The position numbers and the translations under genes were made by a program. Shown piece by piece: positions 10,142 to 13,828 of a stretch of 14,048 bases of DNA. This DNA comes from an uncultured Pseudomonadales bacterium (GTDB lineage: Bacteria; Pseudomonadota; Gammaproteobacteria; Pseudomonadales; Porticoccaceae). The notes beneath the pieces are model-generated. The model worked only from the letters and a program-made list of their open reading frames with translations. It was not told where the DNA came from and did not search any database. How positions within the stretch are numbered: position 1 is the stretch's first letter; each line of letters starts with the position of its first letter. The DNA is taken from contig CAJQJT010000331.1 of NCBI GenBank assembly GCA_905478725.1, forward strand, positions 1 to 14,048. Direction: 5' to 3'.

Positions 10142-10870
10142 ATGACTCTGTGGCAGCAGTTTCTCAGCGTCGAGATTGAGTTCCATTCATTTGGGCCGCA
10201 ACATCTCGGCGCCCTGACTGTGTTTGCACTCTGCATGCTGGCAACGGTCTGGTGTATCCGCAATTTTGATGAGCGGCAGAATCTTCTCTTTAGCCGACGG
10301 GTGTCGATCTTCTTAATGATCACTGTCGTTGTTTTTAGCGCGATTAAAATCTACTTCAATCGGTTTAATCTGCTGATTGATCTGCCCATATCCCTGTGTA
10401 ATCTGTTTGCCATATTGGCACCACTGCTATTTTGGCGCCCCAATCAACGGCGCCTAGAAGTGATCTACTTTTTGGTTATGGCTGGCACCATACAGGCCAT
10501 GCTAACCCCGGATCTCTATGTGGGTTTTCCGAGCAATGAGTTTTTTAAATACTGGATTGTCCACGGCGGTCTGGTGGTGCTGGTGATACATAATATCTTT
10601 GCCTTCCAGATGTATCCGCGCCTCAAAGGAATCCTGATTACCTTTGGCTGGGTGAATGTCTATTCACTTGCACTTTATGGACTTAATCTGCTGATGGGTG
10701 CGAACTACTTGTATTTGATGCACAAGCCGGGCAACGCATCTATTCTCGACCTACTTGGGCCATGGCCGCTGTATATATTGGTGGGCGAATTGCTGGCGAT
10801 GGTTTTCTTTGCCTTGTTTTATCTGCCATTTATCTTTATCAAGAAGACTGATCAGCCCACCAAGGCGTAA
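10142..10870 (+). CDS. YwaF/TIGR02206-type integral membrane protein
   Basis: The 242-residue protein is almost entirely hydrophobic, with about seven predicted membrane helices (roughly residues 20-40, 52-70, 78-98, 104-120, 135-158, 163-185, 212-235). Motifs that I associate with the TIGR02206/YwaF family are SFGPQHLGAL near the N-terminus, DLPISLCNLFAI, TIQAMLTPDL..GFPSNEFFKYWIVHGGLV, and YLMHKPGNASILDLLGPWPLYI. The biochemical role of the family is not established. AGGG upstream of the ATG could serve as ribosome site. It begins 7 bp after purD and is probably in the same transcript; the purD link does not by itself suggest a function. Confidence 0.85.
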   Translation: MTLWQQFLSVEIEFHSFGPQHLGALTVFALCMLATVWCIRNFDERQNLLFSRRVSIFLMITVVVFSAIKIYFNRFNLLIDLPISLCNLFAILAPLLFWRPNQRRLEVIYFLVMAGTIQAMLTPDLYVGFPSNEFFKYWIVHGGLVVLVIHNIFAFQMYPRLKGILITFGWVNVYSLALYGLNLLMGANYLYLMHKPGNASILDLLGPWPLYILVGELLAMVFFALFYLPFIFIKKTDQPTKA

Positions 10871-10957: not shown

Positions 10958-11608
10958 ATGTCCCAGTCAAAACTCAAACTCTCTGCATTTGACCAATTTA
11001 TTGTTCAAGCCGATCAAGCTCTACGCACGATTGCTGGCAGCGCCCCAACGCCACAGCGTAGCTCGCCGGCCAAGGACGCAGTAGAGGGTGAGTTATCCGA
11101 GCAGGAACGCAAACATGCTGCCGGCTTGATGCGAGTTAATCATGCCGGTGAGGTCTGCGCGCAAGCTCTCTATCAGGGTCAGGCACTGACCGCAAAACTG
11201 CCCGAAGTGGGTCAGCAGATGGAAGAGGCTGCAGCGGAAGAGATCGACCATTTGGCCTGGTGCGAAGAGCGAATTAATCAGCTTGATGGCAATACCAGCC
11301 TGCTAAATCCGCTTTGGTATGCCGCTTCATTTGGCCTTGGTGCCGCTGCAGGTTTAATTAGCGACAAGCTCAGTCTTGGATTTGTCGCCGCCACTGAAGA
11401 ACAGGTTTGTAATCATCTGCAGGAGCATTTGGATCAGCTTCCGGAGGATGACCACAAGAGTCGTGCGGTGATTGAACAGATGTTGATTGACGAAAAACAT
11501 CATGCCGAAAGTGCTCTTGATGCTGGCGGCTATCCCTTTCCAAAGCCGGTCAAGAAACTGATGACCTTGGTTTCAGGCGCCATGACGGCGAGTAGCTACA
11601 GACTCTAG
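10958..11608 (+). CDS. coq7: COQ7-type di-iron demethoxyubiquinone hydroxylase
   Basis: This is the di-iron monooxygenase that performs the last hydroxylation in ubiquinone synthesis, converting demethoxyubiquinone at the membrane surface. The 216 residues have the duplicated ferritin-like ligand pattern: E65 in [14 protein letters not shown]95 and H98 in [10 protein letters not shown]147 in VAATEEQV, and E179 and H182 in DEKHHAESA. The long N-terminal extension (about 1-50) is typical of the proteobacterial form. E. coli uses UbiF for this step, whereas Pseudomonas-type gammaproteobacteria use Coq7. The 87-bp gap before it shows no clear promoter. In pseudomonads coq7 also lies near osmC and vfr, as here. 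Confidence 0.97.
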
Positions 11609-12742: not shown

Positions 12743-12796
12743 GGGGTATTCTCAGGGTCATTACAATTTGGTATATAAATAATGCTAACAATGCAT

Positions 12797-12825
12797 TTGG
12801 ATTATGACATAGGTCTGCGTATATT
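12797..12825 (+). promoter_or_regulatory. sigma70-type promoter of the 40-codon gene, with overlapping inverted repeat
   Basis: TTGGAT (12797-12802), a 17-bp spacer, and TATATT (12820-12825) make a good promoter. The start would be near 12832, giving a leader of about 40 nt. Inverted repeat TGACA-N15-TGTCA (12805-12829) overlaps the spacer and -10, a position where a bound regulator would control initiation. The -35 is part of a longer block, ATGCATTTGGATTATG (12791-12806), which recurs at the small-RNA promoter downstream. Confidence 0.65.
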
Positions 12826-12871
12826 GTCACACATAGGGCGACTTGCCCATAAACACCCACGGAGATAGACC

Positions 12872-12994
12872 ATGACACTCGTATACATACTAATCGGATT
12901 CACTGGATTAGCGGGTGCTGCAATTGCGAAAGATGACTTCGCGAACGTTAAAGCACCAAAACTCACCACTTCTGATAAGACGCTGACCCACTAA
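12872..12994 (+). CDS. 40-residue hydrophobic small protein, unknown function
   Basis: The frame encodes 40 residues. An N-terminal hydrophobic stretch (TLVYILIGFTGLAGAAIA, residues 2-19) is followed by a charged, Lys-rich tail (KDDFANVKAPK...). This could be a cleaved signal peptide with an AIA site before K20, or a single-helix membrane protein with a short tail. Support for real expression comes from a good promoter 40 nt upstream, GGAG (12861-12864) 7 nt before the ATG, and a strong terminator at 13048-13075. I do not recognise the family. It is divergent from the LysR gene, its most likely regulator. The transcript's untranslated 3' end resembles the small-RNA unit that follows, so the transcript may also act as RNA. 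Confidence 0.6.
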   Translation: MTLVYILIGFTGLAGAAIAKDDFANVKAPKLTTSDKTLTH

Positions 12995-13047
12995 ATCAGC
13001 GGCTTTGTACCAAACCCCTCTTAATCCTTGCTATAGGATTCTTTTAT

Positions 13048-13075
13048 AGGGGCCCTTCTTGGGCCCCTTTTTTTT
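13048..13075 (+). terminator. strong intrinsic terminator after the 40-codon gene
   Basis: AGGGGCCC (13048-13055), loop TTCTT, GGGCCCC plus T (13061-13068), then eight T in all (13068-13075). The 8-bp stem is nearly all G-C. A second hairpin, AATCCT/AGGATT (13023-13028 and 13035-13040), lies just before it. Confidence 0.95.
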
Positions 13076-13204
13076 GTCTTTTAAAAAGCCGTTTTGTAAT
13101 GGGATTGCCTACTCAAACTGCTCAATGAAGCTTTAACAGGCCCACACAGTTCGTAACAAGAATCTTCATTACAAATTGATATGACTCCGATGCAAAAAAT
13201 GCAT
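13076..13204. other. intergenic stretch with alternative inverted repeats
   Basis: No gene was found here. TTTGTAATG (13093-13101) is complementary to CATTACAAA (13167-13175), and AATGAAG (13124-13130) to CTTCATT (13164-13170). The right arms share four bases, so only one pairing can form at a time. A further TGCAAA/TTTGCA repeat (13191-13196, 13204-13209) overlaps the next -35. A 13-codon frame from 13182 lacks a ribosome site and is probably chance. Confidence 0.5.
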
Positions 13205-13233
13205 TTGCAGTATGGGCAGTAGGTTTCTACTAT
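13205..13233 (+). promoter_or_regulatory. sigma70-type promoter of a small-RNA unit
   Basis: TTGCAG (13205-13210), a 17-bp spacer and TACTAT (13228-13233) predict a start near 13240. The block ATGCATTTGCAGTATG (13199-13214) matches the block at the 40-codon gene promoter at 14 of 16 positions, in the same register to the -35. The repeat TGCAAA-N7-TTTGCA (13191-13209) overlaps the -35 and could be an operator. Confidence 0.6.
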
Positions 13234-13239
13234 AGGCGT

Positions 13240-13363
13240 ATTGAAGTTAAACCGATTTTTAAAGAGTTGCTGACTAGCAAGTCTTGACCAGTTTTACCCC
13301 TACCCCTTCCTTTGAGAACTTCTCAGGATTTTTTAGGAGCCTACCTTTAGGCTCCTTTTTTTT
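13240..13363 (+). ncRNA. candidate small regulatory RNA, about 124 nt
   Basis: A predicted promoter and a strong terminator bracket this segment, and no frame longer than about 12 codons starts inside it. The predicted RNA has an A/U-rich 5' end, then hairpin TTGCT-GACT-AGCAA (13267-13280). Next is a C-rich stretch likely to be single stranded (ACCCCTACCCCTTCC, 13296-13310), hairpin TGAGA-ACT-TCTCA (13313-13325), and the terminator stem (13335-13356) with eight U. That is the usual layout of a trans-acting, Hfq-type small RNA, with the C-rich part suited to pairing with Shine-Dalgarno regions. I do not recognise a known family. The alternative is an untranslated remnant of a degraded gene. 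There is no direct evidence of transcription. Confidence 0.55.
13335..13363 (+). terminator. strong intrinsic terminator of the small-RNA unit
   Basis: AGGAGCCTA (13335-13343) and TAGGCTCCT (13348-13356) are perfect 9-bp arms around CCTT, followed by eight T (13356-13363). On the other strand the stem is followed by an A-rich run, so it works only for plus-strand transcripts and not for the converging OsmC gene. Since that gene is on the minus strand, a plus-strand transcript must end here. Confidence 0.95.
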
Positions 13364-13408: not shown

Positions 13409-13828
13409 TCAGGCCTCTATCACTTCATAGCTATGGCTCATTTCAACACCTGCAGCATCGAGCATAATCGACGCTGAACAATATTTCTCTGCCGACAGCT
13501 CTACTGCACGCTTAACCTGCGTCTCTTTAAGGTTGGTTCCGCTAACCAAAAAATGCAGATGGATCTTGCTAAATACGGCGGGCACTGCATCGACGCGCTC
13601 GGCTTCGACCTCAGTGCGACAATCAGTCACCTGCTGGCGACTCTTTGTCAGCATGCTCATCACATCAAAGGAAGCACAGCCTCCAAGGCCCAGTAACAGC
13701 ATCTCCATTGGGCGGACACCCATATTGCGACCACCCTGAGCCTCAGCACCATCCATCACCACAGAGTGGCCACTACCGGATTCCCCGAGAAACATTACGC
13801 CGTCTACCCACTTAATTGTCGCCTTCAT
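13409..13828 (-). CDS. yhfA: OsmC/YhfA-family protein
   Basis: OsmC/Ohr-fold proteins are small dimeric enzymes, several of which reduce organic peroxides through paired cysteines; the role of the YhfA branch is unproven. The 139-residue product (MKATIKWVDGVMFLGESGSGHSVVMDG...) has GGRNMGVRPMEMLLLGLGGCASFDVMSML with C51, and KYCSASIML with C117, the two conserved cysteines. The ATG at 13828 was chosen because GAGG (13835-13838) lies 6 nt upstream and the product starts as in relatives. The frame is open to 14008, but that extension would run through the divergent promoter and into crp. Divergence from crp matches the yhfA-crp pair of E. coli and osmC-vfr of Pseudomonas. Confidence 0.93.
   Translation of the reverse strand: MKATIKWVDGVMFLGESGSGHSVVMDGAEAQGGRNMGVRPMEMLLLGLGGCASFDVMSMLTKSRQQVTDCRTEVEAERVDAVPAVFSKIHLHFLVSGTNLKETQVKRAVELSAEKYCSASIMLDAAGVEMSHSYEVIEA

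Follow-up and report, generated by a model that had tools for sequence, protein, structure and literature searches.

The window analysed here, a stretch of 14,048 nucleotides from an uncultured Porticoccaceae bacterium of the Pseudomonadales (source genome G000, 80% complete), carries a real and conserved module next to a gene for a LysR-type regulator, and comparison of sequences makes it most likely that this module is a LysR-linked array of dual- and single-function siblings. The two units in the window are, in our judgement, probably paralogues controlled by the regulator, the first specifying a dual-function RNA and the second a sibling small RNA (sRNA) without an open reading frame (ORF) (Table 1). 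This judgement rests on comparison, namely on the units, the boxes and their spacing, the selection acting on the ORF, the conserved module and its linkage to lysR, and the separability of peptide and RNA.

Organization of the Two Units

Table 1. Features of the window, numbered from its first base.
Feature	Position	Strand	Remarks
coq7, neighbour, context marker	10958..11608	+	Pfam COQ7, 150.1 bits
lysR, divergent LysR-type regulator, 324 aa	11768..12742	-	putative regulator of units 1 and 2
Putative LysR operator of unit 1	12768..12806	.	upstream half site, then core AATGCATTTGGATTATG (12790-12806) over the -35
-10 of unit 1, TATATT	12820..12825	+	column identity 0.95 over 24 regions
Predicted unit 1 transcript, about 244 nt, mRNA and sRNA	12832..13075	+	promoter and terminator; predicted ends
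Small-protein ORF, 40 aa, one hydrophobic stretch, then GAAIAKDD	12872..12994	+	dN/dS 0.17-0.27; relatives
C-rich putative seed CCAAACCCCTCTT of unit 1 and small hairpin AATCCT..AGGATT	13010..13040	+	identity 0.91; mostly unpaired
Intrinsic terminator of unit 1, T8	13048..13075	+	terminator scan; stem changes across 52 modules
Putative LysR operator of unit 2	13171..13214	.	core AATGCATTTGCAGTATG (13198-13214); zero-mismatch composite site
-10 of unit 2, TACTAT	13228..13233	+	identity 0.85
Predicted unit 2 transcript, about 124 nt, sibling sRNA without conserved ORF	13240..13363	+	ends inferred
C-rich putative seed TTACCCCTACCCCTTCC of unit 2 and second-type small hairpin	13291..13330	+	identity 0.73
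Intrinsic terminator of unit 2, T8	13335..13363	+	terminator scan
osmC, convergent neighbour, context marker	13409..13828	-	Pfam OsmC, 66.7 bits; NCBIfam PRK10738, 162.4 bits, above cut-off

The elements listed in a preliminary description of this DNA, that is the boxes, 17-bp spacers, ACCCCT and AGGATT motifs, 40-residue ORF and terminators, were all recovered in place by direct reading and scanning. The box block reads ATGCATTTGGATTATG at 12791-12806 in unit 1 and ATGCATTTGCAGTATG at 13199-13214 in unit 2, and 17-bp spacers lead from these to the respective -10 hexamers; ACCCCT lies at 13014 and 13296, AGGATT at 13035 and 13325, and both units have a U-rich stretch and a T8 terminator. A scan of 1748 bases found six terminator-like sites, both unit terminators among them, where shuffled sequence gave a mean of 1.5 (sd 1.1). 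A scan with the plain sigma-70 consensus calls the promoter of neither unit, which may be expected if these promoters depend on an activator. The 3'-end plan said to be common to both units stands as far as the C-rich segment, AGGATT and the T8 terminator are concerned, but the small hairpins differ in type, that of unit 2 being CTTTG...CAAAG. As had been proposed, unit 1 encodes a 40-residue peptide and unit 2 no conserved ORF, and the suggestion that the first transcript is both mRNA and regulatory RNA is upheld to the extent that ORF and RNA module lie in one predicted transcript. Elsewhere in the window, a 242-residue protein at 10142-10870 on the plus strand matches Pfam TMEM164 (140.8 bits, above cut-off), a family known mainly from animals.

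Conservation and Layouts Within the Genus

A search with the region matched all 34 same-genus relatives and, the source genome included, 37 of 56 genomes in total, two of the 37 being weak matches outside the genus. Within the genus, which belongs to the SAR92 clade, units beside lysR are present in 34 of 35 genomes; the 35th (G011) gave no contig with LysR and was left out of the count of layouts. In all 34 loci (own included) the first module next to lysR is flanked by a box at either end, which bears out the view of the units as siblings. Three layouts occur among these loci. In layout A (18 genomes) lysR, on the opposite strand, is followed by a peptide unit with C-rich module, an ORF-less unit and the convergent osmC; in layout B (11 genomes) the ORF-less unit precedes the peptide unit and the stretch is without osmC, crp being next in those records where it was found; layout C (five genomes, of 1.2-1.4 Mb) has ORF-less units only. 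Genomes with layout B carry two near-identical modules in tandem, and these, together with four tandem peptide units in G215, a genome of another genus, support the earlier proposal of duplication. The supposed pair is one state of a variable array.

Conservation peaks at the box, the -10, the ORF and the C-rich module, and the spacers vary. In 24 aligned layout-A regions (own included), column identity in unit 1 is 0.99 for the core box, 0.73 for the upstream half site, 0.95 for the -10, and 0.91 for the C-rich segment with its hairpin; that of the ORF is 0.80, a value slightly raised by the choice of regions through an exact match to the first 14 ORF bases. For unit 2 the values are 0.70 (upstream half), 0.85 (box and -10) and 0.73 (second C-rich module), and the two spacers reach 0.19 and 0.28. 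The -35 block, C-rich segment and hairpins are hence conserved in the relatives examined, and the preliminary description has withstood this comparison.

The exact module pattern of unit 1 (ACCCCTCTTAATCCT, 2-8 nt, AGGATT) gave 46 matches in a collection of 84,980 species, each represented by a single genome, and every match is in a record titled SAR92, HTCC2207, Porticoccaceae, MOLA455, or uncultured or metagenome-assembled Cellvibrionales or Pseudomonadales. The motif adjoins the same LysR wherever the stretch extends far enough (L053, L065 and L068 are too short). A phage origin was considered and rejected, the module pattern having no match in viral contigs and the peptide none in phages. 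Units were collected from 47 distinct loci that contain a LysR start, loci without one being excluded; no units were obtained from L020, which is masked, or from L073, which is too short, and peptide-only units are under-counted in this collection because detection required a terminator with C-rich sequence upstream.

The C-Rich Module

The 15-mer ACCCCTCTTAATCCT is exact in 52 of 53 first-type modules, the exception being the second unit of L025, a locus whose peptide unit has a degenerate module; when only loci retrieved by other means than this motif are counted, it is exact in 39 of 40 modules. The second-type modules, 22 of which were aligned, have CCCC in 30 of 30 cases. In an alignment of 52 of the 83 modules, four of the seven pairs of the terminator stem show changes on both sides; the small hairpin of the first type is nearly invariant in an alignment of 30 of the 53 first-type modules and so offers no covariation (the degenerate second unit of L025 is excluded from both alignments). 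In folding predictions the seed has an unpaired probability of 0.72, against 0.44 elsewhere, a comparison made without a composition-matched control, and the value is higher for the seed in 77 of 83 folded units. A gene for Hfq was found in six of six genomes tried. Rfam gave no match at gathering score in the window or in 18 related loci (62,913 bases). Known sRNA families were also rejected below threshold, where the best candidate, suhB (23.1 bits against a required 41), rests on terminators, and where a ylbH match lies on the opposite strand.

The Small Protein

The unit 1 ORF is preceded by a Shine-Dalgarno sequence, and its first 34 codons give a dN/dS of 0.27 over 27 sequences and 0.17 over 12 close ones, the set being limited to sequences with the exact ORF start. 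The predicted unit 1 transcript carries an ORF under purifying selection, as a dual-function RNA should. A hydrophobic stretch with G-x-AIA-x-D after it is common to the peptides, G, A, I and A being invariant in 24 aligned members, and 121 relatives were found in a protein collection at E ≤ 0.1; among the 120 listed, none has a Pfam domain and those with a name are called "hypothetical protein". The peptide of the window stays below the Pfam (best 9.9 bits against 25) and NCBIfam (14.7 against 52) cut-offs, 23 other peptides reach at best E 0.00065 (NCBIfam PRK13682) and 0.0026 (Pfam) as judged by E-values only, and no single family was matched in more than five of the 24 peptides. By its sequence, the peptide represents an unannotated small-protein family that is recognisable in several genera.

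These findings bear on the view that the units are two ordinary non-coding sibling sRNAs in which the 40-residue ORF is incidental. The view would account for the RNA-only units, with no peptide by profile, of the small genomes and of five sampled genomes of the other genera g143, g23, g146 and g150, but the Shine-Dalgarno sequence, the low dN/dS, the spread of the peptide family over several genera and the similar ORFs in other families make it quite improbable.

With the peptide profile, ten matches were obtained in G215 and one in each of G000, G017, G022 and G005. In G215, six dispersed copies of the peptide gene (L291-L295) share a different promoter core, ACTTAACATTG followed by CATAAT, and five of the six have a CTACCC-type segment and a hairpin ahead of the terminator; to judge from this core, a second regulator may drive the six copies.

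Units With Peptide or RNA Alone

The peptide and RNA functions predicted for unit 1 are separable. No peptide was found by profile genome-wide in seven of seven small genomes, in which the locus itself was seen and which are not all complete; four of them have two full RNA units, one is cut by a contig end, and G434 and G435 show two boxes. Likewise, the profile found no peptide in the five genomes of g143, g23, g146 and g150, where the units are RNA-only. Conversely, the peptide unit of G024 and G026 has lost CCCC and the neighbouring RNA-only unit keeps it, and the peptide unit of G030 is half way to this loss.

An alternative would be that the array consists of LysR-controlled small-protein genes only, the C-rich 3' segment serving termination, mRNA stability or localisation and the ORF-less units having decayed. 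It would agree with purifying selection on the peptide, with the ten peptide matches in G215, with the lack of enrichment of long target sites (see below) and with the LysR-controlled paralogous small membrane proteins known as WatR/WatS (PMC10355033). It is, however, at odds with the retention of box, C-rich module and terminator in the ORF-less units of the genus and with small genomes that retain such units and have no peptide genome-wide, and the C-rich module is better conserved than the ORF; we regard this alternative as unlikely, and a dual-function first unit with an ORF-less sibling remains the reading followed here.

The LysR-Type Regulator and Its Putative Operator

The regulator matches Pfam HTH_1 (65.8 bits) and LysR_substrate (56.8 bits), both above cut-off, which assigns it to the LysR type, and its nearest solved chain is 2uye (78.9 bits). 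An ortholog (E ≤ 1e-60) is present in 103 of 112 genomes of the family Porticoccaceae. Among 139 strict boxes, which include related genomes and are not independent, 87% have AATRCATT plus two bases followed at 20 nt by a -10 hexamer (A at position 2, T at 6), against at most 20% for each of 21 other spacings; outside the genus, 31 of 41 boxes have at least four of six matches to TATAAT at the 20-nt spacing. Perfect composite sites of box plus promoter, by a pattern built from these same box sites, number 77 in 48 genomes of the genus, and 74 of these are at the LysR locus; the three others are G018:C1, G023:C88 and G016:C1. With at most one mismatch allowed, about 36 sites lie off the locus in the 48 genomes, against 22 for the reversed control. 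Off-locus box-like sites were viewed in eight stretches, and those of G435, G013 and G023 are inside a long open frame. A site with one mismatch recurs off the LysR locus in G020, G011 and G430 (L297, L298, L299), where the downstream sequence is similar in all three and has no evident ORF; this recurring site is possibly a further LysR target. The LysR protein thus seems to be almost exclusive to this array, though a further target may exist. The control of unit 1 by LysR, proposed in the preliminary description, gains from these counts a likely operator that is nearly confined to the LysR locus.

It could be argued that another regulator drives the units, that the block is not a LysR operator and that the linkage to lysR is passive, since the assignment is made from sequence and the promoter block differs in the six dispersed peptide genes of G215. 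Against this, all but three of the 77 perfect composite sites lie at the LysR locus, and nine of 18 LysR relatives from outside the family have a neighbouring box, exact or changed in one base, with its -10 at 20 nt; we hold such a regulator to be very improbable.

Distribution Beyond the Genus

The sequence upstream of LysR was examined in 12 of the 13 other genera of the family, and all 12 have a box, strict in 11 and a one-base variant in one (L159). The units there are of the RNA-only or the peptide kind, with as many as four peptide units in a row in G215. Elsewhere in the order, 23 of 281 genomes have a LysR relative (E ≤ 1e-40). Of the 18 loci examined in these genomes (one per genome), nine have a box or one-base variant with the -10 at 20 nt (L174, L180, L182-L184, L186, L188-L190), four (L176, L178, L181, L185) an AATRCATT string with a weaker -10, and five neither box nor string in the divergent region; a short peptide ORF of similar plan is present in six of the 18 (L182, L186, L188-L191). 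The predicted plan, a divergent LysR gene and then dual, RNA-only or peptide-only units, recurs in 12 other genera of the family and, in part, in other families. At the level of the class, LysR relatives occur in three genomes of one further family (four of 369 genomes including the source genome), and these three have no box with a -10.

LysR relatives with the box also occur in family f41 (L180, L181, L183-L185), where a conserved CCAGGTCC segment takes the place of CCCC ahead of the terminator. This may be the same module carrying a different seed, and some of the genomes contain two or three LysR genes of this kind. A model of the 3' module gave weak matches in four other families (G344, G083, G276 and G284; L111-L114; E 1e-5 to 8e-5), in stretches without a LysR match, and these may be due to chance. 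A stronger match in G404 (E 5.5e-11; L167, G404:C43) was set aside as nearly identical to G399:C26 (L154) and apparently misbinned. The L154 stretch itself has a box, a 23-residue peptide frame and a C-rich module between two long open frames, and is without LysR.

Candidate Targets and Proposed Mechanism

Prediction of targets with the C-rich segment, as advised in the preliminary description, gave a divided result. Matches to the 8-mer before ATG number 75 in 10 genomes (two at the RNA locus), against 33 for the reversed control, but the 8-mer resembles a Shine-Dalgarno sequence; perfect 10-mer complements (TTAAGAGGGG) number 39 in 15 genomes, but 17 of these are the RNA genes themselves, and the 22 others are rarer than the 44 of the reversed control, so that long sites are not enriched. 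Translation covered those of the 75 8-mer matches with sequence retrieved (30 loci plus 20 stretches). Sites before frames that we take to be MFS sugar-transporter-like (G236, G348, G022) or porin-like (G016, G017), and before some other frames, serve as leads only. The site AAGAGGGGCCAAGATG, which in three genomes opens a 99-residue frame that we presume to be internal to rplV, was not counted as a target.

The CCCC segment may pair with mRNAs in trans, and the best reading appears to be that the units work through a CCCC anti-Shine-Dalgarno seed with Hfq, like VcdRP and the LysR-linked AbcR1/2. In the mechanism that we infer, which covers transcription, LysR control, Hfq dependence, pairing and membrane location, LysR would bind the AATGCATT...TTATG block and the upstream half site, over the -35 of each unit, and, depending on a ligand, would switch units 1 and 2 together, with few if any other such sites in the genome. 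Translation of the 5' part of the unit 1 transcript would yield a small protein that has a single hydrophobic span and probably resides in the membrane. The 3' part of this transcript, made up of CCAAACCCCUCUU, the small hairpin, a U-rich stretch and the U8 terminator, would act as a base-pairing RNA of the Hfq type, the CCCC seed covering G-rich ribosome-binding sites. Unit 2 would be an ORF-less sibling with a seed of the same kind.

Related Systems

No description of this locus was found in the literature searched, a search whose scope excluded most subscription journals. LysR regulators that adjoin an sRNA under their control are known, as with GcvA, which controls the neighbouring GcvB; OxyR/OxyS and GcvA/GcvB have one sRNA each and are not known to include a peptide, and the Rfam families of OxyS and GcvB are not matched by the units described here. 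OxyS adjoins oxyR (PMC11975290).

In VcdRP of Vibrio cholerae, a 29-aa ORF is followed by four consecutive conserved C residues close to the 3' end and by a terminator; this RNA pairs at translation starts in an Hfq-dependent manner (PMC8672173). Unit 1 resembles it in the order of small ORF, CCCC and terminator, a likeness of plan; the partial text of that report mentions neither an ORF-less sibling nor a LysR link, whereas here there is a second unit and the peptide can be absent. In Rhizobiales, the LysR-type VtlR/LsrB lies beside the tandem homologous sRNAs AbcR1 and AbcR2 (121 and 114 nt), with CUCCUCCC and UUCCCCUC as anti-Shine-Dalgarno motifs. In Brucella, VtlR activates three genes for small proteins as well; VtlR has been linked to over 250 genes, and LsrB controls AbcR1, not AbcR2 (PMC7486931, PMC8844928). 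The likeness is that of a LysR gene adjoining sibling RNAs with an anti-Shine-Dalgarno segment; however, these sources, as far as their available text goes, report no dual-function unit, and the units here match no Rfam family. By gene neighbourhood, the basis on which the two LysR genes were compared, VtlR/LsrB is linked to trxB and the LysR here has coq7, osmC and crp nearby. In Methylomonas sp. DH-1, WatR sites lie over the -35 of the paralogous smORFs WatS1-5, whose peptides have one predicted membrane span, as is proposed for the LysR site and small-membrane-peptide gene here; the WatR motif (ATTGTT-N11-AACAA, with 22 binding peaks that include pump and other genes) looks different from the present block, and the excerpted report gives WatS no sRNA role, a distinction drawn from description (PMC10355033).

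Implications

A broader reading, on which we are evenly divided, is that a so far undescribed family of LysR-linked arrays extends across a bacterial order, in which a module that unites a small membrane protein and a CCCC-seed sRNA in one transcript has undergone duplication and, more than once, separation into genes for the peptide only and genes for the RNA only; in one genome it would also have multiplied at scattered sites under a second promoter. If it is true, the evolution of dual-function RNAs can be read from living species. To our knowledge, dual-function RNAs are few and mostly single genes; dozens of natural variants here show the putative peptide and RNA functions together, apart and amplified, and the marine bacteria concerned have cultured representatives (HTCC2207 among the module matches). 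The locus further contributes a small-protein family that lacks annotation, a LysR switch that is likely dedicated, and a defined putative operator; it would also extend LysR-linked sibling sRNAs, described in Rhizobiales, to marine Gammaproteobacteria.
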